This document shows, in pieces, positions 38,991-55,702 of a stretch of DNA of 64,000 bases. Within the stretch, counting starts at the first letter, position 1; each line of letters begins with the position of its first letter. This DNA is from Thioalkalivibrio thiocyanodenitrificans ARhD 1. GTDB lineage: Bacteria > Pseudomonadota > Gammaproteobacteria > Ectothiorhodospirales > Ectothiorhodospiraceae. The stretch is taken from NCBI RefSeq assembly GCF_000378965.1, contig NZ_KB900536.1:1976052-2040051 (forward strand), in the 5' to 3' direction. Both the position numbers and the translations under genes were made by a program. The notes beneath the pieces are model-generated. The model had not been told where the DNA came from. It saw only the letters and a list, made by a program, of their open reading frames with translations, and did no database searches.

Positions 38991-39034
38991 CAGGCTGAAA
39001 AGACTGCGGCCGACCCCCGAAAGGGGTCGGCCGC
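38991..39034 (-). terminator. Terminator of the mtr operon
   Basis: GCGGCCGACCCC (39006-39017), loop CGAAA, GGGGTCGGCCGC (39023-39034). Perfect 12-bp stem, 50 bases after the mtrC stop. On the minus strand it is followed by AGTCTTTTC, a modest T-rich tail. Confidence 0.8.
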
Positions 39035-39084: not shown

Positions 39085-41310
39085 TCAGTTCCGCAGGCCG
39101 TGGACCGTCCTGACATCGGCCACACGTCCCGGTCCATGGCAGGTCGAGCAGGTTTCAAAGCTCGACGCGTCGATGGTCGGCTGATTCCAGGGATTGCCTG
39201 ATACGCCGCCGTTCTGCGTCATGTGCATCTGCGCACCGGTGCTGTCGTGGCAGGAGGAACAGGCTGCCATGGTGGCGCTGACCTTCCAGTGCGTGTTGAC
39301 ATTGGAGGAGCCCCCGATCGAATCCACCGTTGTACCGCGGGGTTCAAGCTCCCGTGCAAGCGGATAGTAGGTGTCACCGTCATGGCACTGGGTGCAATTG
39401 GCGATGTTTCCCGGGAAGCTGCTGCCACTGTCCCAGTGGGACCAACTTCCAAAGCCGGTGATCCATAGGTCGTCTCCGCGGAAGCCGGCCGCGGTGCTGT
39501 GGAGACCGTGGATCATGGCCATGAAGTTGGTCGCCTGCTCCCTCTGACCGTCCGGGTGAGGCAGGTCAATATACGGCCTGGGGTTAAGTTCCCGACGGTC
39601 GATATCGGTACTGTTGTTGTTGTGGCAGAGGATGCACTGCTGGACGTCGTTGTGCCGGTTTCCGCCATGCTTGTTGAAGACACCGACGCGGTCCTCGTGG
39701 CAGGTGGTGCAGTTGGCAACGCTCACCACTTGCCGGCGCGGCTGGCCGCCCACAACCTGGATGGCATTGGATGCCACAAGAGCCGAGAAGTCCGCGCTGT
39801 TGACATTGCCCCCGAGTGTCACATACACCGTGCCTGTAATCCCCTTTCCGGCAAGATCAATGGTGCTGGTATACGTTCCGCCGGACTGGCTCGCCGAGTT
39901 CTGGGCATTGCTCTGTTCGACTGGAGCCCCAGGGCGAGCCTGATCCGGATCAGAGTGCGTGAAGTCGGTATCGAACGCTCCAACACGGATCGCCGCGGAG
40001 AGCACCCAGCCGTCTTCCTGATGGACGACGCGGCTGCCGTCGTACTCAACGCCCCACTGCACCGTCAGCTGATTGCCGACACGTTCGGCACTGTCGATCA
40101 CGTAACGCAGGTTGCCGTCCCTCGCGAACTGCCGCGCCGCGTCCTGATGGGCCTCCACCAGGGTTTCGCTGCTGGCAAAGGGCGGTGGGGTATCCGGGGT
40201 GTGGCAACCCGCACAGGAGGCGTTGTCCCGCGGGCCTGCCGCGTGACCGGCGCCCGTGGCGAAGTTCACATTGTCGTGGCAGGAACTGCAGGCCTCGATG
40301 GTGGGCTTCGTAAACGCCCGGGCGGCACCCGACCCCGCCTGTACACTGTCATGACAGGACACGCAGGTGGCGATGTCGCGCGGGAAGGCGACACCGGTCC
40401 AGCGGGGACGCAGGAACTGCTGCGTGCCGGCCAGCCCGCCGCCGCTGTGAATCTCGTGGCCGAGGTAGGCCAGGTCGACGGCGTTGGGACTGTCGGTGAA
40501 GCTGCTGAAATTGAACTGGTTGTGGCAATTGGAACAGGTTTCCGTACCGATACGGTTACTACCGTGAGCGGACAGGTTGTCGTGGCAGCTGTTGCAGGAA
40601 GCCGTCGCCACGGCGCGCTTGGTCTCGCCCCGCCCCGCATCCATGTAATCGTAGGCCGCCTCCCAGTTGCTGCCGGGCCTCAGCAGCACCACGAAGCGCC
40701 GCATGTCGATCTGCGATGCAGGCACCCAGTCGTCGGCGGTCACGGGTTCAACGCCGTTCAGATACTCGGCGGGGACCTCGTTCACATTAACCGGATAGGT
40801 GTAGCGGTAGGCGTTGCCGCCCAGGGATTCCCACAAGCCTTCGGCATGATTGCCCCGCACCTGATCCGCCTGCAGGCGCGCATGCGGGCCCGTGCGCGGC
40901 CCCCCGGCCACCGTGGTCAGGTAACTTTGCCAGGTCTGGTAGTCGTCCTTCCTCACCAGCCTGGCCACCGTGAACTCCACGTCGCCGGGTGAGGGCTCGA
41001 ACGTCACGCCGAAACCGGAGGCCAGCTGCGCGGTCACCTGGAACTCGACAACCGGCCTGCTGTTGCGGATGTAGGCGTCCGTGATCGTGACCGAGGGCAG
41101 CACATTCGCCGGCGGCACCGGCGCACCCACCGGAGGCGCGGGCGCGCCCGGTTCACCCGGAGGCCCCGTGCGCCCGTCGCTGCCCAGGCAGCCGGTCAGG
41201 CCGACAAGGCTGACGCCGAGGACCATGATCAGCACCACGCGCCACCATGAACCGCGGCCACCGCCAGCGGCGCCATCGACGTGCATATCCCGTGTACGCT
41301 TGTTAATCAT
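39085..41310 (-). CDS. mtrC: Decahaem outer-surface cytochrome, OmcA/MtrC family
   Basis: A 741-residue lipoprotein (lipobox LVGLTGC) expected on the cell surface as the terminal reductase or electron acceptor of an Mtr conduit. Ten CXXCH motifs are present: CNSCH, CSNCH, CVSCH, CSSCH, CAGCH, then after a beta domain CTTCH, CILCH, CTQCH, CSSCH, CSTCH. This is the five-plus-five pentahaem layout of MtrC. After the lipid cysteine comes a collagen-like GPPGEPGAP linker. The start ATG at 41310 overlaps a short upstream frame; a longer frame to 41367 is unlikely. Last gene of the operon. Confidence 0.93.
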   Translation of the reverse strand: MINKRTRDMHVDGAAGGGRGSWWRVVLIMVLGVSLVGLTGCLGSDGRTGPPGEPGAPAPPVGAPVPPANVLPSVTITDAYIRNSRPVVEFQVTAQLASGFGVTFEPSPGDVEFTVARLVRKDDYQTWQSYLTTVAGGPRTGPHARLQADQVRGNHAEGLWESLGGNAYRYTYPVNVNEVPAEYLNGVEPVTADDWVPASQIDMRRFVVLLRPGSNWEAAYDYMDAGRGETKRAVATASCNSCHDNLSAHGSNRIGTETCSNCHNQFNFSSFTDSPNAVDLAYLGHEIHSGGGLAGTQQFLRPRWTGVAFPRDIATCVSCHDSVQAGSGAARAFTKPTIEACSSCHDNVNFATGAGHAAGPRDNASCAGCHTPDTPPPFASSETLVEAHQDAARQFARDGNLRYVIDSAERVGNQLTVQWGVEYDGSRVVHQEDGWVLSAAIRVGAFDTDFTHSDPDQARPGAPVEQSNAQNSASQSGGTYTSTIDLAGKGITGTVYVTLGGNVNSADFSALVASNAIQVVGGQPRRQVVSVANCTTCHEDRVGVFNKHGGNRHNDVQQCILCHNNNSTDIDRRELNPRPYIDLPHPDGQREQATNFMAMIHGLHSTAAGFRGDDLWITGFGSWSHWDSGSSFPGNIANCTQCHDGDTYYPLARELEPRGTTVDSIGGSSNVNTHWKVSATMAACSSCHDSTGAQMHMTQNGGVSGNPWNQPTIDASSFETCSTCHGPGRVADVRTVHGLRN

Positions 41311-41422
41311 GGGTCCAGTCCCCTTCTCTCTCTGCAATTTGATCATGATCCCGCTCCGACGCCTCATGGGTGATGCGGCTCACCGCCATCACCGTGTCTT
41401 GCTGCTGGGCTTCCGTCACCAC
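41303..41422 (-). CDS. Candidate 39-aa ORF between mtrB and mtrC
   Basis: A GTG four bases after the mtrB stop opens a 39-codon frame whose TAA overlaps the mtrC start region. GAGGA lies just upstream, overlapping the mtrB stop. The peptide is hydrophilic and charged (VVTEAQQQDTVMAVSRITHE, then acidic and histidine residues), with no signal or helix. It may be a real small protein or only a translated leader coupling mtrB to mtrC. No homologue is recalled. Confidence 0.35.
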   Translation of the reverse strand: MVTEAQQQDTVMAVSRITHEASERDHDQIAEREGDWTHD

Positions 41423-41426
41423 ATCC

Positions 41427-43412
41427 TCAGAACCTGAACACGCCGGACACGAGGAAGAGTTGCGCGTTGTAATCCCGCTTGTCGGGATTCGCGGTGACCA
41501 CGTTCTCACCGAGCGCCCAGTCCTGCTCGGTGAAGCGCTGATACGCATAGCGGGCACGAATGGACATGTCCCGCTCCTTGTTGTAGAGCTCGCCGTGGAG
41601 GCTCAATTCGATGAAGTTGCTCTCCAGGGCGGGATGATTCGCCGGCATGCCGTTGTCAAAGTCCATGCGGCCCCGCGAGCTCACCTGTACGAACTCGAAA
41701 CCGAGATCCAGCCTGTCCGGACGGTAGGCCCACTGGGCGCCGAAACCGCCCGTCGCGATCACCACGTCCTGTTCGGCCGTCCAGGTCTCCCCCGCGAGAT
41801 CGATCTGCCTGCGGTCCCAGCCCCCGAAGGCATACAGGCTGAGACGTTCCACGGGCACCCAGGTGACCTCACCGTGTGCCGAGAACCAGTCGGCAGCGGT
41901 GCGCCCGTAATCGGACCGCGTGTAATCGTCGTCCGTGTACTGCGCGCGGCCGGAGAAGGACACATCGGGCAGGGCCGACGGCGTATACGTGGCAAAGAGC
42001 CCGACCTGGTAGCGGTCACGGTCGGCGATGTCATAGTTGCGCAGCCCCTCCGGCACCGGGTTGCGGCGGGTCTCGTCATAGGTGGTGCCGTCCTGCTCGG
42101 AGTAGGCAAGGCGGGCTCCGCCGCTGAGACCCGGGGCGAGCGTGGTGTTAAGCTGTGTATGCACCGTGGTCTCGTTGGTCTTGCGGCGGTCCCCGAAGTC
42201 ACGATCCCGTTCGTCGCGCTCCACGCCCGCGCTCAGGCGCGTGCGCGACGCCAGGCGATAGTCGCCATCCACCGAGTAATGCGTGCGCGTGTAGCTCAAC
42301 GGCATCGTCTCTCGGCCTGCCACCTCGTAGACGCCGGTAGTGTTGTCTCGGTCGTCATAACGGAATGCCGCCCGCAACCGCGCACGGTCGCTCAACCGGT
42401 GGGCGCCGCGCAGGTTCAGGGCGGTGGTCGCGATCTCCCCGTCGAGGTTCGTGACCGCAACGCCGTCACGGGTCACCGAGGTCCCCGAGGCGGGGAAACG
42501 GTCGTCCTGAAGCATCCGCCCCAGGTGCAGATCACCGGAAATGCGGGTGCCCTCCGCCACCGTATACCCGCCGGTGAAGCTCAGGCGATGGAAGGTGTTC
42601 TCCGGCTCCAGGCCGAATGTCTCTCCATCCACGAACATCGTCGAACCCTTGTCCTGAGCGAACCTGGACAGGTGGTAGCCGACCCCGCCCTGAAACCGAT
42701 ATCCCATGTAGTTGACGTTCAGGTTGTAGCGGTCGGTGTGGTAATCCACCAGTTCGGGCGCAATGGAACCGGCACCTGCCCCGAACCGGGTCTCGAAGCC
42801 CCTGAGGCGTGTTCCGTCACGGGTCTCCCGGTTGACGTCGCTGCTGATCCGCCAGCGGCTTTCCGGCATCAGGTAGGCGCCGCCGAGGGCGAAGCTCTGC
42901 CGCTCCTGCTCGATATCGAAATCCCGCGGTGTATCGCTGGTCAACTCACGGGTACCCGCGCCGCTGTGCCTGATGTGCACATCCCGCCATTGGTAGTGAG
43001 GCATCTGGCGGAACTCGAAAAAGGTGGAGTACAGCCCCTGGCGGCCGTGATCAAGGCGCAGGGAACGCGAATCCAGGCCCAGGTTGCGGCCCCGCAGCCG
43101 CCAGTAGTTCATCTCTTCCGCGTCGTAGCTCGGCCGCGCATGCAGATCCACATGGAGGTCAAGGAACAGGCCCTCGTCCGTCAGACCGTCGAAGCGCCCG
43201 AACATGAACGAGTCCGTGGAGATATACCCTACCCCCGCCTGCACTTCATGACCCGCCTCGGTCAGACGCTCCCATGCGACCTCGTCACGCTCGACCGCTT
43301 CTCCAAGTTCAAACATGTCGAACTGCGCAACCGCGCCCATCGGAATCATGAACCCGGCGGATGCGAGCATGCCCAGTACGGGACGTCCTGAAATGCCTCT
43401 TGCGGTCTTCAT
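41427..43412 (-). CDS. mtrB: Outer-membrane porin of the Mtr/Pio conduit
   Basis: A 661-residue MtrB/PioB family barrel that sheathes the MtrA decahaem wire through the outer membrane. A signal peptide ends near GAVAQ; the rest alternates short amphipathic strands and ends in a C-terminal phenylalanine (SGVFRF), as for barrel-assembly substrates. Segments such as LYSTFFEFRQMPHYQWRD match the family. I see no cysteine anywhere, so the CXXC motif of Shewanella MtrB is absent. The start at 43412 has GAGGG eight bases upstream. It lies 24 bases after mtrA. Confidence 0.9.
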   Translation of the reverse strand: MKTARGISGRPVLGMLASAGFMIPMGAVAQFDMFELGEAVERDEVAWERLTEAGHEVQAGVGYISTDSFMFGRFDGLTDEGLFLDLHVDLHARPSYDAEEMNYWRLRGRNLGLDSRSLRLDHGRQGLYSTFFEFRQMPHYQWRDVHIRHSGAGTRELTSDTPRDFDIEQERQSFALGGAYLMPESRWRISSDVNRETRDGTRLRGFETRFGAGAGSIAPELVDYHTDRYNLNVNYMGYRFQGGVGYHLSRFAQDKGSTMFVDGETFGLEPENTFHRLSFTGGYTVAEGTRISGDLHLGRMLQDDRFPASGTSVTRDGVAVTNLDGEIATTALNLRGAHRLSDRARLRAAFRYDDRDNTTGVYEVAGRETMPLSYTRTHYSVDGDYRLASRTRLSAGVERDERDRDFGDRRKTNETTVHTQLNTTLAPGLSGGARLAYSEQDGTTYDETRRNPVPEGLRNYDIADRDRYQVGLFATYTPSALPDVSFSGRAQYTDDDYTRSDYGRTAADWFSAHGEVTWVPVERLSLYAFGGWDRRQIDLAGETWTAEQDVVIATGGFGAQWAYRPDRLDLGFEFVQVSSRGRMDFDNGMPANHPALESNFIELSLHGELYNKERDMSIRARYAYQRFTEQDWALGENVVTANPDKRDYNAQLFLVSGVFRF

Positions 43413-43436
43413 TCGTCTGCCCTCGATCACCGCTGT

Positions 43437-44366
43437 TCAGCGCCTGAAATTGAAGCCCTGGGGATGGTTGGAACCGTGAACCTGCGAGTGGCAGTTCAGG
43501 CAACCCCGGCCGGCGGCGAAGCCCGAACTCAGGCGGTCCCCGTCATACATCCGGGCGGCGTGGTCGCCGAAGACCTGATCCAGATGGCACTGCTGGCACA
43601 GTTGCGGTGCCCGGACCTCCAGCAGCCCGCGGTGCACGGAGCCGTGGGGCTGGTGGCACGTGGTGCAGTCCTCGCGCACCGGCAGGTGCTCCCAGAGGAA
43701 CGGCCCCCGCTTGCCCGCATGACAGGAATAGCAGGTTTCATTGAGCGTCGGCTGGTTGAGATCCGCCGCGATGCCACCGGTGCCGTGGGGTTGGTGGCAG
43801 TCCGTGCACCCCATCAGACCGTCGCGCACCGGATGGCGGGACGGACGGCGCAGCTCATGATCCTGCTGCTTGTGGCAGTCGGCACAGACCTGCGGCTGGG
43901 TCACGCGATCGAGCACGTTATCGTGCACCGTGTGGATCTTGTGGCAGGACACGCAGGCCAGACCCGCGAACTCGTGGTTGCTGGCCACCCAGTGGAGCAT
44001 GTGCGGATCCCCCTGATGACAGCTCAGGCACACCTCGTTCTGCATCTCCACCGGCGACTTGTTGCGGCCAAAGACCACTGGCGGCGGAATGCGTTTCTGC
44101 CCTTCGGCGGGCGGCCGCAGATGCTCGTCCGCAACGCCGTGGCAGGCCTCGCAGCCATCGCTTCCGAATGGTATGCGCGGGTCCGCATCCGCCGCGTGCG
44201 GTGTCTGGAGGATGGACAGCACCGGGTATGCCTCGGTCTCGTCGTGACACCGTGTGCACGTCTCCATCTCCCGGGCGAAAAGCCCTTCCGACAGGAGGAG
44301 CACCACGAGCACCAGTGCGAGACCCAGGAGACCCATCTGACCTGCCGTTGATCGAGGTGACGACAT
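43437..44366 (-). CDS. mtrA: Periplasmic decahaem cytochrome, MtrA/DmsE family
   Basis: A 309-residue cytochrome with ten CXXCH sites: CTRCH, CEACH, CLSCH, CVSCH, CADCH, CTDCH, CYSCH, CTTCH, CQQCH, CLNCH. The regular spacing, the CHQPHG repeats and the terminal HGSNHPQGFNFRR are typical of the DmsE/MtrA family. It carries electrons from periplasmic donors through the MtrB barrel to MtrC. The N-terminal hydrophobic segment acts as a signal sequence. Start at 44366 follows GGGGAAGGA. The gene lies directly upstream of mtrB. Confidence 0.95.
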   Translation of the reverse strand: MSSPRSTAGQMGLLGLALVLVVLLLSEGLFAREMETCTRCHDETEAYPVLSILQTPHAADADPRIPFGSDGCEACHGVADEHLRPPAEGQKRIPPPVVFGRNKSPVEMQNEVCLSCHQGDPHMLHWVASNHEFAGLACVSCHKIHTVHDNVLDRVTQPQVCADCHKQQDHELRRPSRHPVRDGLMGCTDCHQPHGTGGIAADLNQPTLNETCYSCHAGKRGPFLWEHLPVREDCTTCHQPHGSVHRGLLEVRAPQLCQQCHLDQVFGDHAARMYDGDRLSSGFAAGRGCLNCHSQVHGSNHPQGFNFRR

Positions 44367-44410: not shown

Positions 44411-45424
44411 TTACTGCTGTCTGGCAATGAAGGACGCTTCACCGCCATCCAGTGCCAGGGTGTATTCAAGGGATACATGGTGGAAACGGTGATCCGTGTA
44501 GTTGTTGTGCACCGCGAATCCGATGTTGTAGTTCTTGCCGGGTTCGAGGTCCTTGTGCTGACCGTCACCCGCCTTGAGCGGCCGGCTGAGCACCACGGTC
44601 CATGTCCCGTCCGCGTACTCGGCCTCGGCGGAGACATTCTGCGCCTCGCGCTCATGGCGCTCCTCCAGGATGTAGCCTTCCACGGCCCGGGGCCCATTGT
44701 CGTGCCGCAAGCGCGCCTGCCAGTACTCCAGGAACATGCCCTTGCCGAAGAGATCCTGGATCTCCGCATCGGGCTTGTAGTTCTCGCCACCGCCGCTGCG
44801 CGTCGCGCCTGTGCGCGAGGCGAACAGGTACTTGGTAAGATCGGCGTCAGACGGGTCACTGGCCATGCCCATGGCATCGTCGTGACAGGCACCCCAGCAA
44901 CCTGCCCGGGTCGCCTCGCGCACGGTGCCGTCATCCAGCATGACGGTCACACGGGCGGCGTAGTCCGGGTCCATCTTCTCGCCGTCATACACGGCCTCGT
45001 GCCATTGCAGGCGGAAAAAAAGGCGGTCGCCGTCGTGGGCGGTCTGCACGTCCAGATCGATGGTGCCGGGCTTACCGGCGGCGGCCATCGGCTTCGGCTC
45101 GAGGTGTGCGCCGCGCCCTTCCGCCGCGACGATGAGATCGCCGATGTCGCGCTGCTCGCCATCGTGGCAGTACATGCAGTTCCTGCCTTCACGGAAGCGC
45201 TGGGCCCCGCTGTGATCCGTCTGGGTCATCACCCATTCGAACGAGGCCTGGCCCGGCGAGAACAGCACGATGGTCTCGCTGTCCACGGCCCCCCAGTTGA
45301 CAGCCATTGCCGGTGCAGCCGCCAGGGCGAGACCGGCCGCCACCAGGGCACCGATGGTCCCGGGAAGAAACCTCGCATGATGTCCCTGAGGGTGGTTGCT
45401 GTCATTGCTCGGATTGATGGTCAT
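44411..45424 (-). CDS. EB_dh-family periplasmic cytochrome (ethylbenzene dehydrogenase haem subunit-like)
   Basis: A 337-residue exported protein with a signal peptide (LVAAGLALAAAPAMA). The beta-sandwich domain (DGDRLFFRLQWHEAVYDGEK; RVTVMLDDGTVREATRAG; GKNYNIGFAVHNNYTDHRFH) matches the haem-binding gamma-subunit fold of type II DMSO-reductase-family enzymes. Two possible c-type haem sites are present: CMYCH and the expanded CWGACH (CX3CH). No catalytic molybdenum subunit is nearby, so an electron-shuttle role between CymA and MtrA is inferred. The start at 45424 has AAGGAG eight bases upstream. Confidence 0.82.
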   Translation of the reverse strand: MTINPSNDSNHPQGHHARFLPGTIGALVAAGLALAAAPAMAVNWGAVDSETIVLFSPGQASFEWVMTQTDHSGAQRFREGRNCMYCHDGEQRDIGDLIVAAEGRGAHLEPKPMAAAGKPGTIDLDVQTAHDGDRLFFRLQWHEAVYDGEKMDPDYAARVTVMLDDGTVREATRAGCWGACHDDAMGMASDPSDADLTKYLFASRTGATRSGGGENYKPDAEIQDLFGKGMFLEYWQARLRHDNGPRAVEGYILEERHEREAQNVSAEAEYADGTWTVVLSRPLKAGDGQHKDLEPGKNYNIGFAVHNNYTDHRFHHVSLEYTLALDGGEASFIARQQ

Positions 45425-45477: not shown

Positions 45478-46083
45478 TCAGAAGGTGAAATCGACCTCAC
45501 CCTCGTCCTGTTCCTCCTGGGGCATCTTGGGCATCTGGTGGGCAATGCCCTGATGACAGTCGATGCAGGTCTCGTTGGCCTCGATGGCCTCCGCGTGCTG
45601 GCGCTGGGCGCGCAACGGCTGGGCCTCCAGGTCCATCGCGTCCCATTCATGGCAGTTGCGGCACTCGCGCGAATCCGTGCGCTGCATGGAGTCCCACACG
45701 CGCTCCGCGAGCAACAGCCGGCGGGCCTCGAACTTCTCGGGTGTGTTGATCGTGCCGCGCAGCTTGTGCCACACCTCCGCGCTCGCAACGATCTTGCGCC
45801 GCACCTTGTGCACCCAGGGGTCCGGCACATGACAGTCCGAACAGGTGGCGCGCACGCCGCTGTCGTTGGCGTAATGCACGGTTTCCTTGTACTCCTCGTA
45901 CACGTAATCACGCATCTCGTGACACGAGGTGCAGAAGGCCATGGTATTGGTGGCCTCCATGGCCGTATTGAAACCGCCCCACAGGAGGATGCCCGCCAGG
46001 ATGCCGCCGATGACCAGCGTGCCGGAGGCATAACGGGCACTTGGACGGCGCATGGCGTTCCAGAATCGTTTCAGGAATTTCAA
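45478..46083 (-). CDS. cymA: NapC/NirT-type tetrahaem quinol dehydrogenase (CymA-like)
   Basis: A 201-residue inner-membrane cytochrome with one N-terminal helix (about residues 21-42) and four haem motifs: CTSCH, CSDCH, CRNCH, CIDCH. MAFCTSCHEM with the following glutamate-rich segment is typical of the quinol-oxidising NapC family. First gene of the mtr operon: it would oxidise membrane quinol and feed the periplasmic cytochromes. No napA or nrf genes are near, which supports CymA-like use. A sigma-54 promoter lies about 100 bases upstream. Confidence 0.92.
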   Translation of the reverse strand: MKFLKRFWNAMRRPSARYASGTLVIGGILAGILLWGGFNTAMEATNTMAFCTSCHEMRDYVYEEYKETVHYANDSGVRATCSDCHVPDPWVHKVRRKIVASAEVWHKLRGTINTPEKFEARRLLLAERVWDSMQRTDSRECRNCHEWDAMDLEAQPLRAQRQHAEAIEANETCIDCHQGIAHQMPKMPQEEQDEGEVDFTF

Positions 46084-46184: not shown

Positions 46185-46200
46185 AGCAATGACCTTGCCA
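46185..46200 (-). promoter_or_regulatory. Sigma-54 promoter of the cymA-mtr operon
   Basis: On the minus strand TGGCAAGGTCATTGCT matches TGGCACG-N4-TTGCW with one difference and exact spacing: GG at -24 and GC at -12. The expected start is about 90 bases before the cymA ATG. A sigma-54 activator with an intact GAFTGA loop is encoded 2.7 kb away. Confidence 0.75.
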
Positions 46201-46442: not shown

Positions 46443-46877
46443 ATGGCCCGGCGTAGAAAGAACCCCGCCAGGATCCCCCGGTGGGTCCGCTGGACACTCA
46501 CCATGGGGGTACTGGCAGGGTCTGCGCTGCTGATCCTCGGCCTGCTTCCGCGCGGCGGACTCAGTACCGATCTTTCACGCATCGGTCAGGGCCAGCCGCT
46601 CGGGGTCGTGACCTACGAAACCGCGCATCCGGCCAGCATGGCGCTGATGGATGTCGTCAACGATTTTCGTGCCGAGACCCGTCTGGACATCGATTTCGTC
46701 GTGGCGCACCTGGGGTCACCGGACGGTGACCGGTTTGCACGCCGCTACGGCGCCTCGTCTCCCGGGCTGCTGATCTTTTTCACCGGGGAAGGCGAGCGGT
46801 ATGCCGTATTGCGCGTGCCGGAAACCACGGCGGAGATTCGCGAAGTCGCGGAGCGGATCGCCCAACCGCACCACTGA
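46443..46877 (+). CDS. Membrane-anchored thioredoxin-like protein lacking cysteines
   Basis: A 144-residue protein with a basic N-terminus, one membrane helix (about residues 17-35) and a soluble domain that looks thioredoxin-like in pattern: GVVTYETAHPASMALMDVVN where WCXXC would be expected, IDFVVAHLGSP, then GLLIFFTGEGERYAVLRVP and a terminal helix. There is no cysteine, so it cannot be a disulfide oxidoreductase. Fold assignment is tentative. Start 46443 has GGAG ten bases upstream. It is transcribed away from cymA, so it may share regulation. Confidence 0.65.
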   Translation: MARRRKNPARIPRWVRWTLTMGVLAGSALLILGLLPRGGLSTDLSRIGQGQPLGVVTYETAHPASMALMDVVNDFRAETRLDIDFVVAHLGSPDGDRFARRYGASSPGLLIFFTGEGERYAVLRVPETTAEIREVAERIAQPHH

Positions 46878-46957: not shown

Positions 46958-48718
46958 TCAGCCCGCCGCCGGGACCAGCGGTGACCCCCGGGGCGCTGCT
47001 GTGGCGGCCGAGGCGACCTGCGGCGGCCACCGGACCGTGAAAACCGTACCACCGCCCTCCCGGGGCGCGTGGTCGATGGATCCGCCCACCTGCATGATGT
47101 GGCGATACACCAGCGCCAGGCCCAGCCCCGTACCGCCTTCCCGGCCCGTCACGAACGGCTCGAACAACCGGTCCCTGATGTGGGGCGCGACACCGGGGCC
47201 GTTGTCGGAAACCACCAGTTCGGTGGCGCCGTCGGGCGCCACGCTGGCTTCGACCCAGACCCGGCCCTCCGGGGGGACCACCTGGATCGCGTTGCGAACC
47301 AGATTCGCCACCACCATACGGAAGCCCCCGGGCGGTATCTCCACCGGCATGTCGGCCGTGCTGACGCTCAGCGTGATGCCCTCCTCCTGCGCCATGTTGC
47401 AGAACTTGCCGTAGCAGTCCTTCAGGGCCTCGCGCAGGGAGAGCACGGTGACCTCCTGCTCATCGCCCCGAACGAAGTCCATGAAGTCGTTGACCAGTTG
47501 GTCGATGCGATTGATCGACCGCAGCATCACGCGCCTGTCCTCATCCGGCAGATCGGCCGCCTGGCACAGCAGCTTGATGGGCGCAATGTCATTCTTGATC
47601 TCGTGGCTGAGCTCGGAGGACATCTCACCGAGAGTGGACAGCGCACGAAGCTTTGCCACCCTCTCCTTCAGACGCTGGTATTCGGTGAGATCGGTGATGG
47701 TGACGACCGTCATGTCGTCGGAACGACGAAACGAGATCAACGCGGGGAACCGGTACTTGCAGATGACCAGCGGGGCTTCCAGCGTGCCCGAGTCCTTTTC
47801 CTCCAGTTGGCGGGCCAGTTCGATATGATCCGATCCGGCGCAGAGTTCCCTGATGTGCTGATCCCGGCAACCCCCGCACTCCCGAAGCGCCTCGACCTTT
47901 CTGTTGACATGACGGATAAAGCCTTGCGAGTCGATCAGCAGGACATACTCCTGCACGCTGTTGAGGATCCACTCGGAGAGGCGCAACTGATCAAAGGCCT
48001 GGATCAGCTCGTGCTCAAGCATGTCAAGCTCATCCCCGCGCACCGACGGATCCCCCCGCCCCCCGCCGGGAGAGCCGCCCGAACCGGCGAAGTGAAGGGC
48101 CATGCCCGGATGCGCACCGGCGCGCCCCAGTATTCGCAACAGGCGACTGCGCCACAGCAATGCAACGGCGACCCCCAACAGGCACGCCAGCAGGGCAAAC
48201 GCCCCCGTCACAACGACGATGGCGCTTCGGACGGGGGCGAAACTGGCGGACATGGCCTCGTGGTTCCAGACCAGCACCAGCTCGCCGATCATCCCCCGCA
48301 GGCCCATGATGGGGATGTACTCGGCAGATACATTGGGCGGAGGGCTGTAGGGCGCATACACGCCATAGACGGCGGGATCGGAGTGGGCAAGGAGATTGCC
48401 GTATTCGTCCAGCACCGCGGCGCTGGTGATGTAATCAGGGCCGGCGAGGGACCGGGCCAGCCTGAACAGCTGCCAGTAGTCGTGCGTGGCCACGCTGGAC
48501 GCCACAAGACCGTGGTCATGCTCCAGCAGTGAAGCGACGACGGCCTGGGTGCGTTCCTCGATCAGGCCGTGCGCGTACTGATAGAGCCAGATGGTCAGGG
48601 GGATGGTGACCATCAGCACCACCAGCAGGAATGTTGCGGCCAGGCGTACCCCGATGCCCGAGAACGGATTTCGGTGAAGCCGGCCGGTCTGTAGCTCTGC
48701 GGACATTGGCGCTGCCAT
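46958..48718 (-). CDS. Sensor histidine kinase with cysteine-containing PAS domain
   Basis: A ~586-residue kinase. Two helices (about residues 22-45 and 165-190) flank a periplasmic sensor of about 120 residues. A PAS-like domain follows (SVQEYVLLIDSQGFIRHVNR) with cysteines in RECGGCRDQ, RELCAG and VICKYR, then HisKA (SSELSHEIKNDIAPIK, phosphorylated histidine) and HATPase (NLVRNAIQ, DNGPGV, GGTGLGLAL). ATG at 48718 is used; GTG at 48727 and ATG at 48706 are alternatives. It is 43 bases after the sigma-54 activator gene and surely its partner. Confidence 0.9.
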   Translation of the reverse strand: MAAPMSAELQTGRLHRNPFSGIGVRLAATFLLVVLMVTIPLTIWLYQYAHGLIEERTQAVVASLLEHDHGLVASSVATHDYWQLFRLARSLAGPDYITSAAVLDEYGNLLAHSDPAVYGVYAPYSPPPNVSAEYIPIMGLRGMIGELVLVWNHEAMSASFAPVRSAIVVVTGAFALLACLLGVAVALLWRSRLLRILGRAGAHPGMALHFAGSGGSPGGGRGDPSVRGDELDMLEHELIQAFDQLRLSEWILNSVQEYVLLIDSQGFIRHVNRKVEALRECGGCRDQHIRELCAGSDHIELARQLEEKDSGTLEAPLVICKYRFPALISFRRSDDMTVVTITDLTEYQRLKERVAKLRALSTLGEMSSELSHEIKNDIAPIKLLCQAADLPDEDRRVMLRSINRIDQLVNDFMDFVRGDEQEVTVLSLREALKDCYGKFCNMAQEEGITLSVSTADMPVEIPPGGFRMVVANLVRNAIQVVPPEGRVWVEASVAPDGATELVVSDNGPGVAPHIRDRLFEPFVTGREGGTGLGLALVYRHIMQVGGSIDHAPREGGGTVFTVRWPPQVASAATAAPRGSPLVPAAG

Positions 48719-48761
48719 CCCCTCCACCCCGCGGAAAGTGCATCCCGCAGGCGAGCCGCCG

Positions 48762-50147
48762 TCAGGCGCCCGATGATTCCTTGATGTCCGACAGGAGGCC
48801 GAACTCGCGTAATCTCGCCCGCAGTGTATTGCGGGAGATATCCATGACCTCCGCCACGCGGCTCTTGTTGCCGTTGTAGCGATCCAGGGCCAGCGTCAGC
48901 ACCTCTTCCTCGAAACGGGACATGAGTTCACGCAGACGGCCCTGGGCAATCGCGGATTCGATGATGGCATGCAACATATCATCGGCATTGCCGGCCTCCA
49001 CGGACGGCTGTTCGGGCTTGAGATCCAGCCGCTCCAGGAGCCCGGTCTTCTGCTTCGCGGCCGTCCGATACACCGTGTTCTTGAGCTCCCGGACATTGCC
49101 GGGCCAGGCGTGGGCCCGGGCCTGCTCCAATGCCTGTTCGGTGACGCCTTCGATCTGCAGGTCGAGTTCCCGGTTGACCGCGGCAACGAATCCCTTGATC
49201 AGGGACTCGATATCCTGGCTTCGCTCACGAAGCGGCGGGATGCTGATGGGGATCTGTGCCAGACGGTAATAGAGGTCGCGGCGGAACCGTGACTGCTCCA
49301 CCAGTTCCTCCAGGTCCTGATTGGTGGCCGTGACCAGGCGCACATCCACGTGGCGCGGTGTCGATTCCCCCAGGCGATGAAATGTCCTGTCCTCGAGGAA
49401 TCTCAGCACCTTGGCCTGGCAGCTGAGGGGCATGTCGCCGATCTCATCCAGAAACAGGGTGCCGCCGGCCGCGCTTTCCACCCGCCCGGGCGTGCTGCGC
49501 ACGGCACCGGTAAAGGCCCCCGCCGCATAGCCGAACAGCTCCGCCTCCAGCAGCGTTTCCGGCATGGCCGTGCTGTTCAGGGCCACGAACGGTCCGTCGG
49601 CCCGCGCGGAGTGCGCATGGATGATATGCGCGGCCACATCCTTGCCGACACCGGTCTCGCCGGTAAGCAGGACGCTGAGATCGTTGGTGGCCGCCAGTCC
49701 CAGGGACTTGAATACCTCGACCATGCACGGCGCCGGGCCCTGCACCGTCATCTCCGGTATCGCCGCGGCGGGCGCCGGGGCCTGCGCGGCCTTCTTCTCA
49801 AGGGCCTGGGCCACGGCCTTGACAAGCTGTTCGGAACCGATCGGTTTGCGCAGGATCTCCACCGCGCCGTACTTGGATGCCGAGACGATGTTGTCGGGTG
49901 AGGCGTAGGCCGACAGGATGATCACGGGGATGCCGTTGCCTTCGGCCCGCAGGCGCTCCAGCAGGTCGATGCCGGATTCTTCCTCGAGGCGGATGTCGAG
50001 AATGGCGGCATCCGCCTGGTCGACCACCGAGAGCGCATCCCGGCCATTGGACGCCGCCAGTACGTCCAGCCCCTGGCTCTCGAGGACCCGCCGGACCGCG
50101 TAGATGATCTCGTCGTGATCGTCTACGATCAGAACCCGTCCTTTCAT
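48762..50147 (-). CDS. NtrC-family sigma-54-dependent response regulator
   Basis: A 461-residue activator: receiver domain (RVLIVDDHDEIIYAV; phosphorylation aspartate in AAILDIRLEEE; lysine in ILRKPIGS), AAA+ domain with Walker A GETGVGKDV, intact sigma-54 contact loop GAFTGA, Walker B GGTLFLDEIGD, arginine finger RFRRDLYYRL, and a Fis-type HTH (NGNKSRVAEVMDISRNTLRA). ATG at 50147 has GGAGG six bases upstream. It lies 58 bases after ccmI on the same strand and ahead of the kinase gene. The cymA sigma-54 promoter is a likely target. Confidence 0.93.
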   Translation of the reverse strand: MKGRVLIVDDHDEIIYAVRRVLESQGLDVLAASNGRDALSVVDQADAAILDIRLEEESGIDLLERLRAEGNGIPVIILSAYASPDNIVSASKYGAVEILRKPIGSEQLVKAVAQALEKKAAQAPAPAAAIPEMTVQGPAPCMVEVFKSLGLAATNDLSVLLTGETGVGKDVAAHIIHAHSARADGPFVALNSTAMPETLLEAELFGYAAGAFTGAVRSTPGRVESAAGGTLFLDEIGDMPLSCQAKVLRFLEDRTFHRLGESTPRHVDVRLVTATNQDLEELVEQSRFRRDLYYRLAQIPISIPPLRERSQDIESLIKGFVAAVNRELDLQIEGVTEQALEQARAHAWPGNVRELKNTVYRTAAKQKTGLLERLDLKPEQPSVEAGNADDMLHAIIESAIAQGRLRELMSRFEEEVLTLALDRYNGNKSRVAEVMDISRNTLRARLREFGLLSDIKESSGA

Positions 50148-50205
50148 GGCGACCTCCCTCGTGTCCTGCGTTCCCATCCGGACCGGCGGGGGCCTGTTCA
50201 TGGCC

Positions 50206-51120
50206 TCAGCCGTCGCCGGCAAGCGCGGTCACTTCGTCCAGGTTGGAGCGGATGATCGAGGCCGCCTCGGACTCCGGCGGCAACACGGTGAGCAGTCGTT
50301 CCCAGTATTCCCGGGCGCCGGCGTAATCCGCCTCATAATAGGCGGCACTGCCGGCCATCCACAGGCCCTGGGGATGTTCCGGGGCCAGTTCCAGCGCCTG
50401 CTCGAGCAGTTCCTTCGGCTTGCCCTGCAGGCCGCCGCTTGCCTCGGACAGCACGTCGGCATACTGGATGAGCAGATCCGGATCACGGTGTCCGTCCAGG
50501 GCCACGGCCTCTGCGAAGGCCTCGCTGCTTTCCTCGAAACGCTCCAGGAACACCAGCGTGCGCCCAAGCAGCACCCAGCCCATTCGGTCATCCGGATTGG
50601 CGGCCAGGCGCGCGCGCAGTTGCACGGCCAGCTCCTCGAATGCCTCGGTGTCGTGGGGGCCGGCCGGCACGCGAGCCCCGCCGCCCTGCTGCGGAGCGCC
50701 ACTCTGCGCCTGCCGCTGATTCGTCCCCTGCGCCCCCATGGGCACCACATCCGAGAATCCGACGTTGCCGTACAACCCCAGGGCCAGCAGCGGGACCCCG
50801 ATGGCCGCGATCGCCCCGGAGGCGATCATCAGGGGACGCTGCACGGAAGCCCGCACGGGGGCGCCGCCCTCGGGATCCACCGCGCCGCTCAGGACCAGAT
50901 CCTTTTCCAGGTCGGCCACGGCCGCGTCGTACTGTTCCCGGGTCAGCGTCCCCTGGGCCAGGTCATAGTCCAGTTCCGCCAGCCGATCCCGGTAAATGAC
51001 CGCGTTCACCTCACGCCGGGACCGCCGTCGGCCGCCCGCATCCCACAGCAGCGGATAGACCACAAAACCCACGGCCAGGACACAAAAGGCCACAACCGCG
51101 ATCATGAAGGTCATGCTCAT
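50206..51120 (-). CDS. ccmI: Cytochrome c maturation protein CcmI (CycH)
   Basis: A 304-residue membrane protein with two helices (about residues 5-25 and 97-120) and a periplasmic TPR domain (MGWVLLGRTLVFLERFEESS; YADVLSEASGG; GLWMAGSAAYYEADYAGA). CcmI chaperones apocytochromes to the CcmF/H haem lyase. The cytoplasmic loop has RDRLAELDYDLAQGTLTREQ, a leucine-zipper-like signature of the family. Last ccm gene in the series. Confidence 0.93.
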   Translation of the reverse strand: MSMTFMIAVVAFCVLAVGFVVYPLLWDAGGRRRSRREVNAVIYRDRLAELDYDLAQGTLTREQYDAAVADLEKDLVLSGAVDPEGGAPVRASVQRPLMIASGAIAAIGVPLLALGLYGNVGFSDVVPMGAQGTNQRQAQSGAPQQGGGARVPAGPHDTEAFEELAVQLRARLAANPDDRMGWVLLGRTLVFLERFEESSEAFAEAVALDGHRDPDLLIQYADVLSEASGGLQGKPKELLEQALELAPEHPQGLWMAGSAAYYEADYAGAREYWERLLTVLPPESEAASIIRSNLDEVTALAGDG

Positions 51121-51138
51121 TCTTCGTCCCTCATCGAG

Positions 51139-51660
51139 TCATTCGCCGCGCCGGAACCGCTCCAGGGCGTCCCGCTCCCGCGCGGTCAAGCCTTCGCGGC
51201 CCACCAGCCGGCGGCGCTGCCGCACGACCTGCATCCAGATCAGTCCGCCCACGACCAGGATCAGGAAGGGGCCGGTCCACAGCAGCACGGTATTTGCCTG
51301 GAACGCGGGCCGGTAGCGGACGTAGTCACCGTAGCGCTGGACGAGGAAATCGATAATCTCCTGCTCACCGGCCCCAGCGGCCGTCATCTCATAGACGCGC
51401 CGGCGCATGTCACCCGCCAGCGCCGCATTGGACTCGTAGATGGTCTCGCTCTGGCAGACCGTGCAGCGCAGCTCACGCACCAGCTTCTGATACTGCGCCT
51501 CCTGCTCGGGAGTATCGAAGTCCACCGGATTCACCAGTGGCGCCGCGGTGCCGGCGCCGCCGGCCGCGACCGCCAGGACCAGTCCGGCCAGGGCAAGCAG
51601 CCGGCCCGCCGTCGCGTACAGCCGGTCATGGAGACGGGTCTGGATCACATCGCCATTCAT
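51139..51660 (-). CDS. ccmH: Cytochrome c maturation thiol protein CcmH
   Basis: A 173-residue membrane-anchored thioredoxin-like reductant. It contains the diagnostic RCTVCQ motif (LVRELRCTVCQSETIYESNA) that reduces apocytochrome CXXCH cysteines. Signal peptide at the N-terminus and one C-terminal helix. ATG at 51660 overlaps the dsbE stop as ATGA; longer readings upstream run through dsbE in another frame and are not real. No NrfE-type second copy is seen. Confidence 0.95.
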   Translation of the reverse strand: MNGDVIQTRLHDRLYATAGRLLALAGLVLAVAAGGAGTAAPLVNPVDFDTPEQEAQYQKLVRELRCTVCQSETIYESNAALAGDMRRRVYEMTAAGAGEQEIIDFLVQRYGDYVRYRPAFQANTVLLWTGPFLILVVGGLIWMQVVRQRRRLVGREGLTARERDALERFRRGE

Positions 51661-52193
51661 CGGTTTTCCGCCTCTATCTTCGCGATCAACGGCAGGATCT
51701 CTTCCCGGATGATCTTCGGATTGAGCGGGCCGATGCGCTTGTAGCGGATCGTCCCCTGGGGGTCGAGGAGGTAGGTTTCGGGCGTCGCGTAGACTCCCCA
51801 CTCCATGCCGGCCTCGCCATCCGGATCGAAGGCGATCTTTTCGTAGGGATTCATGTCCGCGGACAGGTAGCGCCTGGCGTTCTCGCGCGTATCCCGGTAA
51901 TTGAAGCTGTGTATCCTCATGCCCTGTCTGGCGAGTTCCATGAGATAGGGTTTCTCCGCCAGGCAGGTGGAACACCAGGACGCCCAGACATTGACCAGGG
52001 CGGTCTCGCCGATGAAGTCCGCCTCCGTGATGGTCACGTCGGGATCGAAGAACGATTCCAACTGGAAGGCCGGCGCCGGCTTGCCCACCAGCGGCGACGG
52101 CAACGCGCGGGAATCCATGCCCAGGCCCACATAGAACAGCCCCAGCAGGGCCAGTATGGCCACCAGGGGCAGCAGGATGCGGCGCAGCATCAT
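51657..52193 (-). CDS. ccmG: Cytochrome c maturation thioredoxin CcmG/DsbE
   Basis: A 178-residue membrane-anchored periplasmic thioredoxin that keeps CcmH or apocytochrome cysteines reduced. The active site is WASWCSTCLAEKP. The usual CcmG motif is WCPTC, so serine replaces proline here. The acidic GMEWGVYATPETYLLD loop is characteristic of the family. N-terminal helix about residues 5-24. It overlaps ccmF by four bases and ccmH by four bases. Confidence 0.94.
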   Translation of the reverse strand: MMLRRILLPLVAILALLGLFYVGLGMDSRALPSPLVGKPAPAFQLESFFDPDVTITEADFIGETALVNVWASWCSTCLAEKPYLMELARQGMRIHSFNYRDTRENARRYLSADMNPYEKIAFDPDGEAGMEWGVYATPETYLLDPQGTIRYKRIGPLNPKIIREEILPLIAKIEAENR

Positions 52194-54196
52194 TCAAGTA
52201 CCTCCTGCCGGATGGGCCGCTCCGGAGGCGCCTTCCCTTCCTCGGTAACGAAGGCTCGGTCACTGGCGAGGCGATAGCGCCGGTCGGCGGCGGCCAGAAA
52301 ACCGCCAAAGGCCATCAGCAGACCGCCGGTCCACATCCAGAACATGTACGGCTTGTAGTGCAGGCGCACCAGCCATGCGTCCCCTTCCAGGCGTTCGCCC
52401 AGGGACACGTACACGTCCCGGGTCGGCCGCCGGTTGAGGGACGCCTGCAGCATCGGGTTGTCCGGCTGGGAATCGTAGTACCGGCGCTGCGGGGTCAGCG
52501 TGCCCACGGTCCGGCCATCGCGGGTCACTAGGATCGAGGCCTGGTCGGCGTCGAAATTGGAGCCCCGAACCGGCTGCACGCCCAGCAGGGTGAACTCGAA
52601 GGCGCCCGCCGTCGCCGTATCCCCGGGCGCCAGGCGCACGTCCCGGTCGATCTCGTAGCTGTTGACCATGGAGATGGCCACCACCACCAGGGCCAGGCCG
52701 GCGTGGGCCAGATGCATGCCGAAGAAGCTGGGGCGCAGGGCCCGCAGCATGCTGCCGATGCCCTGGGAGCGGCGCCGCATCATGCGGTTGCGGATGTCCA
52801 CCGCCGCCGTCAGCAGGATCCACACCGCCAGCCCCAACCCCAGCGCAGTGAGCGGCTTCCACGTGCCCATGGTGAGCGGCCATGCGATGCTCAGCCCCAG
52901 GGTCACCAGGAAGACCCATCGCAACTGCCGGGCCGACTCCATGGGATCGGCCTGTTTCCATGCGATCAGCGGCGCGATGCCCACCAGAAAGAGCATGGGC
53001 AGCATCAGGGGCATGAAGACCGCGTCGAAGTAGGGAGGGCCCACCGAGATCTTGCCCAGCCCCAGGGCATCCAGTGCCAGCGGATAGAGGGTGCCGACGA
53101 ACACCGCGGCGCAGGCCACCACCAGCAGGACGTTGTTGGCCAGCAGCAGCGATTCCCGGGAATACCAGCCGAAGCCGCCGCCCAGCCCCACCTTGGGCGC
53201 GCGAATGGCGTACAGAAGCAGCGAACCCAGCAGCGCCACCGCCAGCATGCTGAGCAGGAAGATGCCGCGATCCGGGTCGGCCGCGAACGAGTGGACCGAG
53301 GTGATCACGCCGGAGCGCACGATGAAGGCGCCCAGGATGGTCAGCGCGAAGGCCAGGATGGCCAGCATGACGGTCCAGACCTTGAAACCGCCGCGTTTCT
53401 CCGTCACGGCGAGTGAATGGAGCAACGCGGTGGCGGCCAGCCACGGCATGAACGAGGCGTTCTCCACCGGATCCCAGAACCACCAGCCGCCCCAGCCCAG
53501 TTCATAGTAGGCCCACCAGGAACCGACGCCGACGCCAAGGGTCATGAAACACCAGGCCACCGTCGTCCAGGGCCGGGACCAGCGCGCCCAGGCGGCATCC
53601 AGCCGGCCGCTGATCAGGGCCGCGATGGCAAAGGCGAAGGCCACCGACATGCCCACATAGCCCATGTAGAGCAGGGGCGGATGGACGATCATGCCCGGAT
53701 CCTGCAGGAGCGGATTGAGGTCCATCCCGTCCGCAGGCACCCGGGCCAGTCGGTTGAACGGATTGGAGGTCAGCACCGTGAAGGCGAGGAAACCCACGGA
53801 GACCATCCCGAGGGTGCCCATGACCCGGGCCAGCATGTCCCTGGGCAGCGCCCTGCTGAAGGTGGCCACCGCCACGCCCCAGGCTGCCAGGACCGTGACC
53901 CACATGAGCAGGGACCCCTCGTGACCGCCCCAGACCGCCGTGATCTTGTACTGGATGGGCAGATTCAGGTTGGAGTTGCGCGCCACGTACTCCACCGAGA
54001 AGTCGCTGGTCACGAATGCCCAGGTCAGCACGAAGTAGGAGAAGACGAGAAAGACAAACTGGCCCACCACCAGCGAGCGCCCGGTGCGCATGAGCCGCTC
54101 ATTGCCGGTGCTCGCGCCGACCAGGGGCAGCACACTCTGGGCCACGGCCAGGCACAGGGCCAGGATCAGCGCGAAATTGCCGAGTTCAGGTAACAT
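52190..54196 (-). CDS. ccmF: Haem lyase CcmF
   Basis: A 668-residue polytopic membrane protein ligating haem to apocytochrome c. The WWD haem-handling domain reads GWGGWWFWDPVENASFMPW, with conserved flanking histidines (HPPLLYMGYVG; FGMHLAHAGLALV). About 15 hydrophobic segments plus a large periplasmic domain. Begins MLPELGNFALILALCLA, standard. It lies between ccmE and ccmG. Confidence 0.97.
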   Translation of the reverse strand: MLPELGNFALILALCLAVAQSVLPLVGASTGNERLMRTGRSLVVGQFVFLVFSYFVLTWAFVTSDFSVEYVARNSNLNLPIQYKITAVWGGHEGSLLMWVTVLAAWGVAVATFSRALPRDMLARVMGTLGMVSVGFLAFTVLTSNPFNRLARVPADGMDLNPLLQDPGMIVHPPLLYMGYVGMSVAFAFAIAALISGRLDAAWARWSRPWTTVAWCFMTLGVGVGSWWAYYELGWGGWWFWDPVENASFMPWLAATALLHSLAVTEKRGGFKVWTVMLAILAFALTILGAFIVRSGVITSVHSFAADPDRGIFLLSMLAVALLGSLLLYAIRAPKVGLGGGFGWYSRESLLLANNVLLVVACAAVFVGTLYPLALDALGLGKISVGPPYFDAVFMPLMLPMLFLVGIAPLIAWKQADPMESARQLRWVFLVTLGLSIAWPLTMGTWKPLTALGLGLAVWILLTAAVDIRNRMMRRRSQGIGSMLRALRPSFFGMHLAHAGLALVVVAISMVNSYEIDRDVRLAPGDTATAGAFEFTLLGVQPVRGSNFDADQASILVTRDGRTVGTLTPQRRYYDSQPDNPMLQASLNRRPTRDVYVSLGERLEGDAWLVRLHYKPYMFWMWTGGLLMAFGGFLAAADRRYRLASDRAFVTEEGKAPPERPIRQEVLE

Positions 54197-54199
54197 GGA

Positions 54200-54649
54200 T
54201 CAGTACTCCTTGCCGGCGCCCGGCGGATGCCCCGCGCGTTCGATGGCCGCCTGGGCCTCGGCGGGCATGTACTCCTCGTCGTGGCGTGCCAGAACCTTGT
54301 CCGCGTGGAACGTGCCATCCGCGTCGATCCGGCCTTCCGCAACCACACCCTGACCCTCCCGGAACAGGGCGGGCAGGATACCCTCGAAGGTCACCGGGAC
54401 GCTCATGGCGGTATCCGTGACCCGGAACGATACCTGGACGGACTGCTGGTCACGCACGACACTGCCCGACTCCACCAGCCCGCCGATGCGGAACTTGCGT
54501 TCCGGCAGCTCGGTCATGGCCATCACCTCCGAAGGCGTGACAAAGAACACCATGGAATCCCGGAAGGCGTTGAGGATCAGCGCCGTGGCGATCGCCAGCC
54601 CCGCCAGCACGCCCGCCACCAGCGCCAGTCGCTTTTGCCGTTTTGTCAT
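54200..54649 (-). CDS. ccmE: Haem chaperone CcmE
   Basis: A 149-residue periplasmic OB-fold protein anchored by an N-terminal helix (about residues 8-28). The covalent haem histidine and nearby tyrosine are in VLARHDEEYMP. VTFEGILPALFREGQGVVAEG is the conserved core. It overlaps ccmD as ATGA and precedes ccmF by three bases. Confidence 0.97.
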   Translation of the reverse strand: MTKRQKRLALVAGVLAGLAIATALILNAFRDSMVFFVTPSEVMAMTELPERKFRIGGLVESGSVVRDQQSVQVSFRVTDTAMSVPVTFEGILPALFREGQGVVAEGRIDADGTFHADKVLARHDEEYMPAEAQAAIERAGHPPGAGKEY

Positions 54650-54840
54650 GTCATATCTCCCGGTGACTGCGCGGAAGCCGTCCGTCGCAGGCGCCGGACC
54701 AGCATGGCCCGGGTGCGGCGGCGGCGGCGGCGCAGAAACAGCACTTCGGCAATCAACAGGGCGGCGAACAGGCCGTAGGAGCCCCAGACATAGGGCCCGT
54801 GGCCGCCCATGGCAATGAAATCACCCACACCATCCCACAT
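54646..54840 (-). CDS. ccmD: Haem exporter accessory protein CcmD
   Basis: A 64-residue single-helix protein that helps release holo-CcmE from CcmABC. It has the conserved FIAMGGHGPYVWGSYG stretch, one helix and a very basic tail (RRRRRRTRAM). Overlaps both ccmC (one base) and ccmE (four bases). Confidence 0.93.
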   Translation of the reverse strand: MWDGVGDFIAMGGHGPYVWGSYGLFAALLIAEVLFLRRRRRRTRAMLVRRLRRTASAQSPGDMT

Positions 54841-55661: not shown

Positions 55662-55702
55662 TCAACTCCTTCCCGGAAAATAGTCAAAACAGGCGGCTCC
55701 GG

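Follow-up and report, generated by a model that had tools for sequence, protein, structure and literature searches.

The question raised by this locus of Thioalkalivibrio thiocyanodenitrificans ARhD 1 is what carries electrons across the periplasm between the quinol dehydrogenase and the outer-membrane conduit of an Mtr cluster, and whether a gene lying between cymA and mtrA encodes that carrier. The locus lies in the window, i.e. the whole stretch of 64,000 nucleotides that was analysed. A preliminary description had placed an EB_dh-type haem protein with a CX3CH motif between these two genes, which holds once the strand is specified: the gene occupies the minus strand (45424-44411), and the translation of the plus strand of 44411-45424 is unrelated to the EB_dh protein. 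Its product is most likely a soluble periplasmic dihaem cytochrome of the PcrO/NapO type which would shuttle electrons from CymA to MtrA, or the reverse, a role supported by homology, synteny and gene fusions.

The gene product is 337 amino acids long as read from its ORF. The ATG at 45424 is preceded by AAGGAG and the stop codon ends at 44411; an alternative in-frame ATG at 45478 touches the cymA stop codon and has no AAGGAG-like site. The Pfam EB_dh domain (E 4.2e-38) spans residues 129-336 when numbered from this upstream start, and all residue numbers given below count from ATG 45424. The N-terminus, judged by eye, is a Sec signal peptide ending in AAAPAMA before VNW. Both the normal and the expanded haem site of the earlier account can be read in the protein; CMYCH (C83, C86, H87) lies N-terminal to the EB_dh domain and CWGACH (C176, C180, H181) lies inside it, and from these motifs two covalent haems are predicted, with H71, H306 and H315 as candidate distal ligands. 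That the gene might prove to be a non-haem remnant had also been considered. A Thioalkalivibrio MAG holds a near-copy, and comparison with this orthologue over 334 codons gives dN 0.057, dS 0.293 and dN/dS 0.195 (0.117 for cymA and 0.158 for mtrA in the same comparison), which places the gene under purifying selection and rules out a remnant; since the motifs are also kept across the family, their occurrence by chance is excluded.

The cluster runs on one strand in the order cymA, EB_dh gene, mtrA, mtrB, mtrC/omcA, with gaps of 53, 44, 6 and 59 nt. The presumed inner-membrane partner, cymA (45478-46083, minus strand, as for all genes of the cluster), encodes a NapC/NirT tetrahaem quinol dehydrogenase (PF03264, E 5.7e-75; four CXXCH), and the presumed outer-membrane partner, mtrA (43437-44366), a decahaem cytochrome of the DmsE/MtrA family (TIGR03508, E 1.6e-80; ten CXXCH). 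These are followed by the MtrB/PioB outer-membrane barrel gene mtrB (41427-43430; PF11854, E 1.1e-101; TIGR03509, E 5e-91) and a gene for an mtrC/omcA-type surface cytochrome of the OmcA/MtrC decahaem family (39085-41367; TIGR03507, E 2e-97). The three TIGRFAM models each score above their cut-offs, which identifies an MtrCAB cluster. An intrinsic-terminator-like hairpin found by consensus scan directly 3' of mtrC (39006-39034, minus strand; 13-pair stem) is a plausible operon end, weak alone, as the window holds two such sites against 3.9 expected in shuffles.

Upstream of cymA there is a sigma-54 type -24/-12 site, TGGCAAGGTCATTGCT (46185-46200, minus strand), the sole match in the window (0.27 expected) to the -24/-12 consensus; in the MAG relative the GG and GC are kept (TGGCAAGGTAATTGCG), and the full pattern is not matched there. 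The next genes upstream on the minus strand encode a sensor histidine kinase (46958-48727; PF00512/PF02518) and a sigma-54-dependent response regulator (48762-50174; PF00072/PF00158/PF02954), and the -24/-12 site beside them suggests that this pair may control the Mtr operon. Between cymA and the kinase gene, a plus-strand ORF of 144 amino acids (46443-46877), whose start resembles a membrane anchor and which looks thioredoxin-like, has no Pfam match. Further along are the cytochrome c maturation system I genes ccmI, ccmH, ccmG, ccmF, ccmE and ccmC (50206-56371, minus strand; PF23914, PF03918, PF08534, PF16327, PF03100 and PF01578), of which the last ORF (55703-56371, minus strand) is ccmB-like by the appearance of its sequence and its position. 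ResB is encoded elsewhere in the genome. The text of Baker et al. (2022, PMC8805035) accords strain ARhD1 an Mtr order of A-B-C, a complete ccmA-I set adjoining it and system II genes elsewhere.

The protein had been called gamma-subunit-like, after the molybdoenzymes of the ethylbenzene dehydrogenase/DMSO reductase family, in an Mtr operon with no molybdoenzyme nearby. The setting is confirmed, as PF00384 (molybdopterin oxidoreductase) has no match within the 64-kb window and its seven matching pieces in the rest of the genome all lie about 0.5 Mb or more away; a gamma subunit of a local molybdoenzyme was thereby rejected. The likeness itself stands for the fold. Foldseek searches with an AlphaFold2 model, built from a four-row alignment of the window protein and three relatives, returned the molybdoenzyme gamma subunits EbdC (2ivf_C, E 3.4e-9) and NxrC (7b04_C, E 6.7e-8), and VIA-align gave Z 14.0 for EbdC (181 aligned, rmsd 4.0) and Z 12.9 for NxrC (178 aligned, rmsd 3.6). 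As carbohydrate-binding module 9 chains score Z 11.6 and below, little under EbdC, the model supports the EB_dh fold class and no function. Its mean pLDDT is 51.3 and its pTM 0.59, with the haem regions under 50, and so no reading of haem pockets or ligands is drawn from it; the structure prediction proposed for the haem pocket thus recovered the fold class and not the pockets. With these two subunits of type II molybdoenzymes the window protein shares its beta-sandwich, and the two haem motifs of its family fall outside the aligned parts. The motif 1 region gave a match to cytochrome c'' (1e8e) at E 0.14, a hint only.

The same genome encodes a third EB_dh protein (C1:1473328-1473993, locus L002). 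A molybdoenzyme match at 1476665 is some 3 kb away, and no CXXCH protein was found in that stretch; this one is likely a genuine gamma subunit. It seems highly improbable to us that the window protein is another, i.e. that it binds haem b as the gamma subunit of a type II molybdoenzyme of the DMSO reductase family whose other genes lie elsewhere, its own gene being stranded in the Mtr operon. In favour of this are the Pfam EB_dh hit, the structural likeness to EbdC and NxrC and a partial hit to TIGR03477 (E 6.9e-15), but the last scores 54.9 bits, far under the cut-off of 169.85, PF00384 is absent from the window, L002 looks like the real gamma type of this genome and the covalent-haem motifs are conserved in 101 relatives of the window protein.

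By sequence the window protein belongs to the PcrO/NapO family, which is where the gamma-subunit comparison fails. In Azospira suillum PS, PcrO and NapO are described (PMC5845722) as soluble carriers with two haems that supply PcrABC and NapAB, and the genetics reported there put them in the electron path from NapC-type quinol dehydrogenases to the reductases for perchlorate and nitrate; a pcrO napO double mutant grows on neither nitrate nor perchlorate, and either gene rescues it. A carrier role in vivo is known from A. suillum alone. One perchlorate island was found in all (L267), identified through TIGR03479, TIGR03478, TIGR03482, PF06778, NapC and MoaA. Its PcrO is a 305-amino-acid EB_dh protein (CVGCH and CWATCH), the alpha subunit of its type II molybdoenzyme is truncated where the stretch ends, and the neighbours encode a beta subunit, a tetrahaem cytochrome, a chaperone, chlorite dismutase (PF06778), NapC and MoaA. 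At L254, napC is followed by a NapO-like EB_dh protein of 275 amino acids (CIGCH, CWQTCH), with napB, napH and napG on the opposite strand some kilobases away. Both labels rest on gene order. In full-length BLASTP the window protein shares 26% identity with the L267 PcrO (355 columns, E 3e-29) and 29% with the NapO-like protein (E 1e-33), which are 70% identical to each other. Common to all are EB_dh homology, two haem sites, predicted solubility and a gene beside that of a NapC/NirT quinol dehydrogenase (cymA here, 53 nt upstream), and the L267 PcrO and the window protein further share the CXXCH plus CX3CH pair and the DHSG and RFHHVS landmarks. The differences are the 26-29% identity, a separate tree clade and the acceptor, which for PcrO and NapO is a periplasmic reductase and for the window protein would be the MtrAB conduit. 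The 26% identity to PcrO and the weak structure model count against the shuttle role.

The haem sites themselves were followed through the family. Of 82 domain pieces found, 72 were kept for the tree and counts (at least 200 amino acids and at least 195 profile positions), with L143, on the same contig as L004, left out; the genome sets are samples, and the search models were seeded from motif-bearing rows, so that motif-less relatives are under-sampled in system-wide counts. Haem-type domains make up 67 of the 72, both motifs being present in 65 and the other two being cut before motif 1, and the spacer of the second motif is three residues in 67/67. All 34 further loci from the order of G746 carry both motifs. 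Across the resulting 101 haem-type rows (67 + 34), CX3CH occurs in 101/101 and CXXCH in 99/99 of those covering the region; C176, C180 and H181 are invariant (101/101), a tryptophan follows the first cysteine of CX3CH in 99/101, and H71 (98/99), H306 (99/100), H315 (100/100) and M187 (98/101) are nearly as constant in the haem-type alignment. In the five motif-less paralogues both second-site cysteines are lost (5/5, with G and I/A/V instead) and the second-site histidine in 4/5, and H315 is kept in 5/5.

These patterns bear on whether the protein could hold one covalent haem only, the CX3CH stretch binding a metal or forming a disulfide in a structural role. CX3CH is not a textbook motif and a PDB sequence search found no structure of a two-motif member, which leaves some room for this idea; we nevertheless judge it unlikely, as the three residues are invariant in the haem-type rows and disappear from the motif-less paralogues, the A. 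suillum work (PMC5845722) gives PcrO and NapO two haems each, and CX3CH is counted, in PMC6295460, among the atypical haem sites of other cytochromes, e.g. ImcH.

The preliminary description had further suggested that the expanded site would test the range of the adjacent ccm system. This expectation did not survive, as CX3CH is fixed in the family and a fused, CWITCH-bearing relative occurs in a genome with ResB and no match to CcmE or CcmH, so that the site makes no special test of the neighbouring ccm genes. CcmE was found in 277/369 genomes of the class, i.e. in 37/40 with a haem-type member versus 240/329 of the others (Fisher p 0.006). The CcmE-negative G129 and G135 are fragmented assemblies in which CcmH is present. 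In G369, rated 100% complete, neither CcmE nor CcmH was matched, ResB is present, and the family member is a NapC fusion with CWITCH (L098). This suggests that cytochrome c maturation system II can serve CX3CH too, with an assembly gap as the alternative explanation for G369; attachment at CX3CH is probably not peculiar to Ccm, and the idea of a Ccm-specific motif is weakened accordingly.

In the class sample, 41/369 genomes have a family match, G345 having a motif-less copy only. At 32 loci NapC is joined in one chain to a single EB_dh domain or to two, and 30 of these loci have a cd1 nitrite reductase match adjoining, mostly with cupredoxin and haem d1 genes; for the remaining two (L093, L097) the contig stops on that side. 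These 'NirT'-like fusions carry the dihaem domain of the window protein, CXXCH and CX3CH included, and differ from it in being covalently joined to tetrahaem NapC, sometimes with two tandem EB_dh domains, and in an acceptor that is presumably NirS or the neighbouring cupredoxin. The tandem forms (L099, L101, L102, L103 and L104) are 914-989 amino acids long, with CXXCH and CX3CH in each EB_dh domain and eight haem sites per chain. The fusions argue that the EB_dh domain takes electrons straight from NapC-type haems. The genome of the window encodes a 554-amino-acid dihaem fusion of its own (L146, C1 near 3399600-3400620), flanked by genes for a cd1 nitrite reductase-like protein and a cupredoxin, and two family members would thus serve two chains in one cell.

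Where NapC and the EB_dh protein are encoded separately, the pair lies beside nirS, near nap genes, or beside genes for FccA and a sulfide dehydrogenase flavoprotein. The row napC, EB_dh, FccA-like cytochrome and flavocytochrome c sulfide dehydrogenase flavoprotein is found by Pfam at L134 and L139 and by similarity at L241, L244, L247, L251, L253 (fused form) and L258, and suggests a possible sulfide-to-quinone route through the NapC/EB_dh module. At L114, L115 and L116, napC and the EB_dh gene are directly followed by a gene for a 400-411-amino-acid protein with one CXXCH (L114:8252-9451, plus strand; L115:5959-7185, minus strand; L116:8281-9513, plus strand). These proteins have no match at Pfam cut-offs or in NCBIfam and a weak porin match in two of the three. 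Their N-terminus may be Cyc2-like.

Clusters with mtrA, mtrB and a family member comprise the window, L004, L005, L119, L124, L128 and L135, and the order seen in the window recurs in the Thioalkalivibrio MAG (L004, with one extra EB_dh gene) and in Rehaibacterium terrae (L005). The extra gene (L004:8044-9411, plus strand), between the orthologue of the window gene and mtrA, encodes a lipoprotein-like dihaem EB_dh protein of 456 amino acids with CVNCH and CWVTCH. MtrB was found in 28/369 genomes of the class and an EB_dh gene beside mtrB in 4 of these (G000, G073, G118 and G365), where random placement would, on a rough estimate, give about 0.013. Mtr linkage is nonetheless a minority condition among MtrB genomes, which counts against the shuttle role.

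The same figure can be used to argue that the protein acts on a soluble substrate itself, as a terminal reductase or oxidase of the periplasm that has CymA in common with the Mtr system and carries nothing to it: MtrA can do without the gene in the 24/28 MtrB genomes that lack it beside mtrB, and the gene stands as a unit of its own, with complete modules on either side. This we consider quite unlikely, since relatives adjoin NirS, the sulfide dehydrogenase (FCSD) and perchlorate reductase and lie near Nap genes, a spread of partners that fits a shared carrier better, and the PcrO/NapO genetics (PMC5845722) also speak against it. Those genetics argue, in favour of the shuttle, that the domain hands electrons to varied partners, and it is synteny that names MtrA as the partner here. 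We know of no measured contact of a dihaem beta-sandwich protein with MtrA.

The phylogeny with other Mtr-linked EB_dh proteins, called for in the preliminary description, was run, and indicates repeated recruitment. In a 74-row tree, from which eight rows (five motif-less, two short and one on a long branch) were left out together with two thirds of the NapC fusions, the window protein falls in a clade of nine rows (support 100/99) made up of five Mtr-linked rows, L114, L115, L116 and L105; the EB_dh gene of L105 lies at the end of its contig, and in that genome mtrB lies at the start of a different one. The clade contains no nir, nap, pcr or sulfide row, and the PcrO and NapO-like rows group with the nir rows in which NapC and the EB_dh protein are separate genes. 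L124, L128 and the second copy of L004 are Mtr-linked yet lie outside the clade, and this scatter implies that the Mtr link arose several times. The Mtr label changes six times on the 72-domain tree, at least five of these being forced by supported branches, and four times on the 74-row tree, the long branches L128 and L135 being insecure; a single origin of the link is rejected.

The earlier account saw the protein as a shuttle in place of FccA or STC. A shuttle remains its best-supported role, on the strength of the PcrO/NapO genetics and the NapC fusions; the comparison needs amending, as it is PdsA that takes the more nearly equivalent place in other Mtr clusters. The Shewanella proteins FccA and STC/CctA share with the window protein a presumed position in the electron path, and are tetrahaem proteins unrelated to it; no CctA family match was found. 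PdsA of Vibrio and others is likewise dihaem, periplasmic and encoded beside cymA and mtrCAB, with the same presumed job, but is a class-I-type cytochrome c with two CXXCH and is unrelated in sequence, and the window protein matches neither NF049874 (PdsA) nor class I cytochrome c, so that identity with PdsA is rejected. The two PdsA-type neighbours tested from other Mtr loci matched NF049874 at E 7e-48 and 6e-26, both under the model cut-off. Six Mtr loci with an EB_dh gene (the window itself is outside this set) have no PdsA-type gene, and the other 27 Mtr loci examined have PdsA-type genes in nine and the EB_dh family in none. As they share none of these loci, the two families look like alternatives for the same place, although the numbers are small.

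In the scheme that we infer for haem occupancy, ligands, partners and direction, electrons would pass from quinol to CymA, then to the dihaem EB_dh protein and on to MtrA, at the side of the MtrAB-MtrC conduit that faces the periplasm, the route being reversed if the cell takes up electrons. Haem 1 would sit on CMYCH in the N-terminal extension and haem 2 on CWGACH within the EB_dh beta-sandwich, and with H71, H306 and H315 conserved as candidate distal ligands, bis-His ligation is possible for both. More tentatively, and with slightly less than even confidence, the clade of the window protein may be dedicated to outer-membrane conduits, one dihaem design, with an invariant CX3CH site that either maturation system could build, having been repeatedly recruited to link NapC-type quinol dehydrogenases across the periplasm to MtrAB and to single-haem, Cyc2-like porins, replacing FccA, STC and PdsA.

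The carrier family is known from nitrate and perchlorate respiration, and its tie to extracellular electron transfer is new within the open literature searched, in which none of the papers listed joined PcrO, NapO or an EB_dh protein to Mtr in its text. The terms ethylbenzene and DMSO reductase do not occur in the searched text of Baker et al. (PMC8805035), whose figures or supplements may show the gene unnamed. With CX3CH invariant in more than 100 relatives, including one in a system-II-only genome, the family forms a natural set on haem attachment at a stretched motif. Of the steps of Mtr-type extracellular electron transfer, crossing of the periplasm is the one that varies most, and to it would be added a carrier that has a known nitrate and perchlorate ancestry and a fold that none of the usual shuttles has, by which one exchangeable module ties Mtr clusters to NirS, Nap, Pcr and sulfide-dehydrogenase systems.
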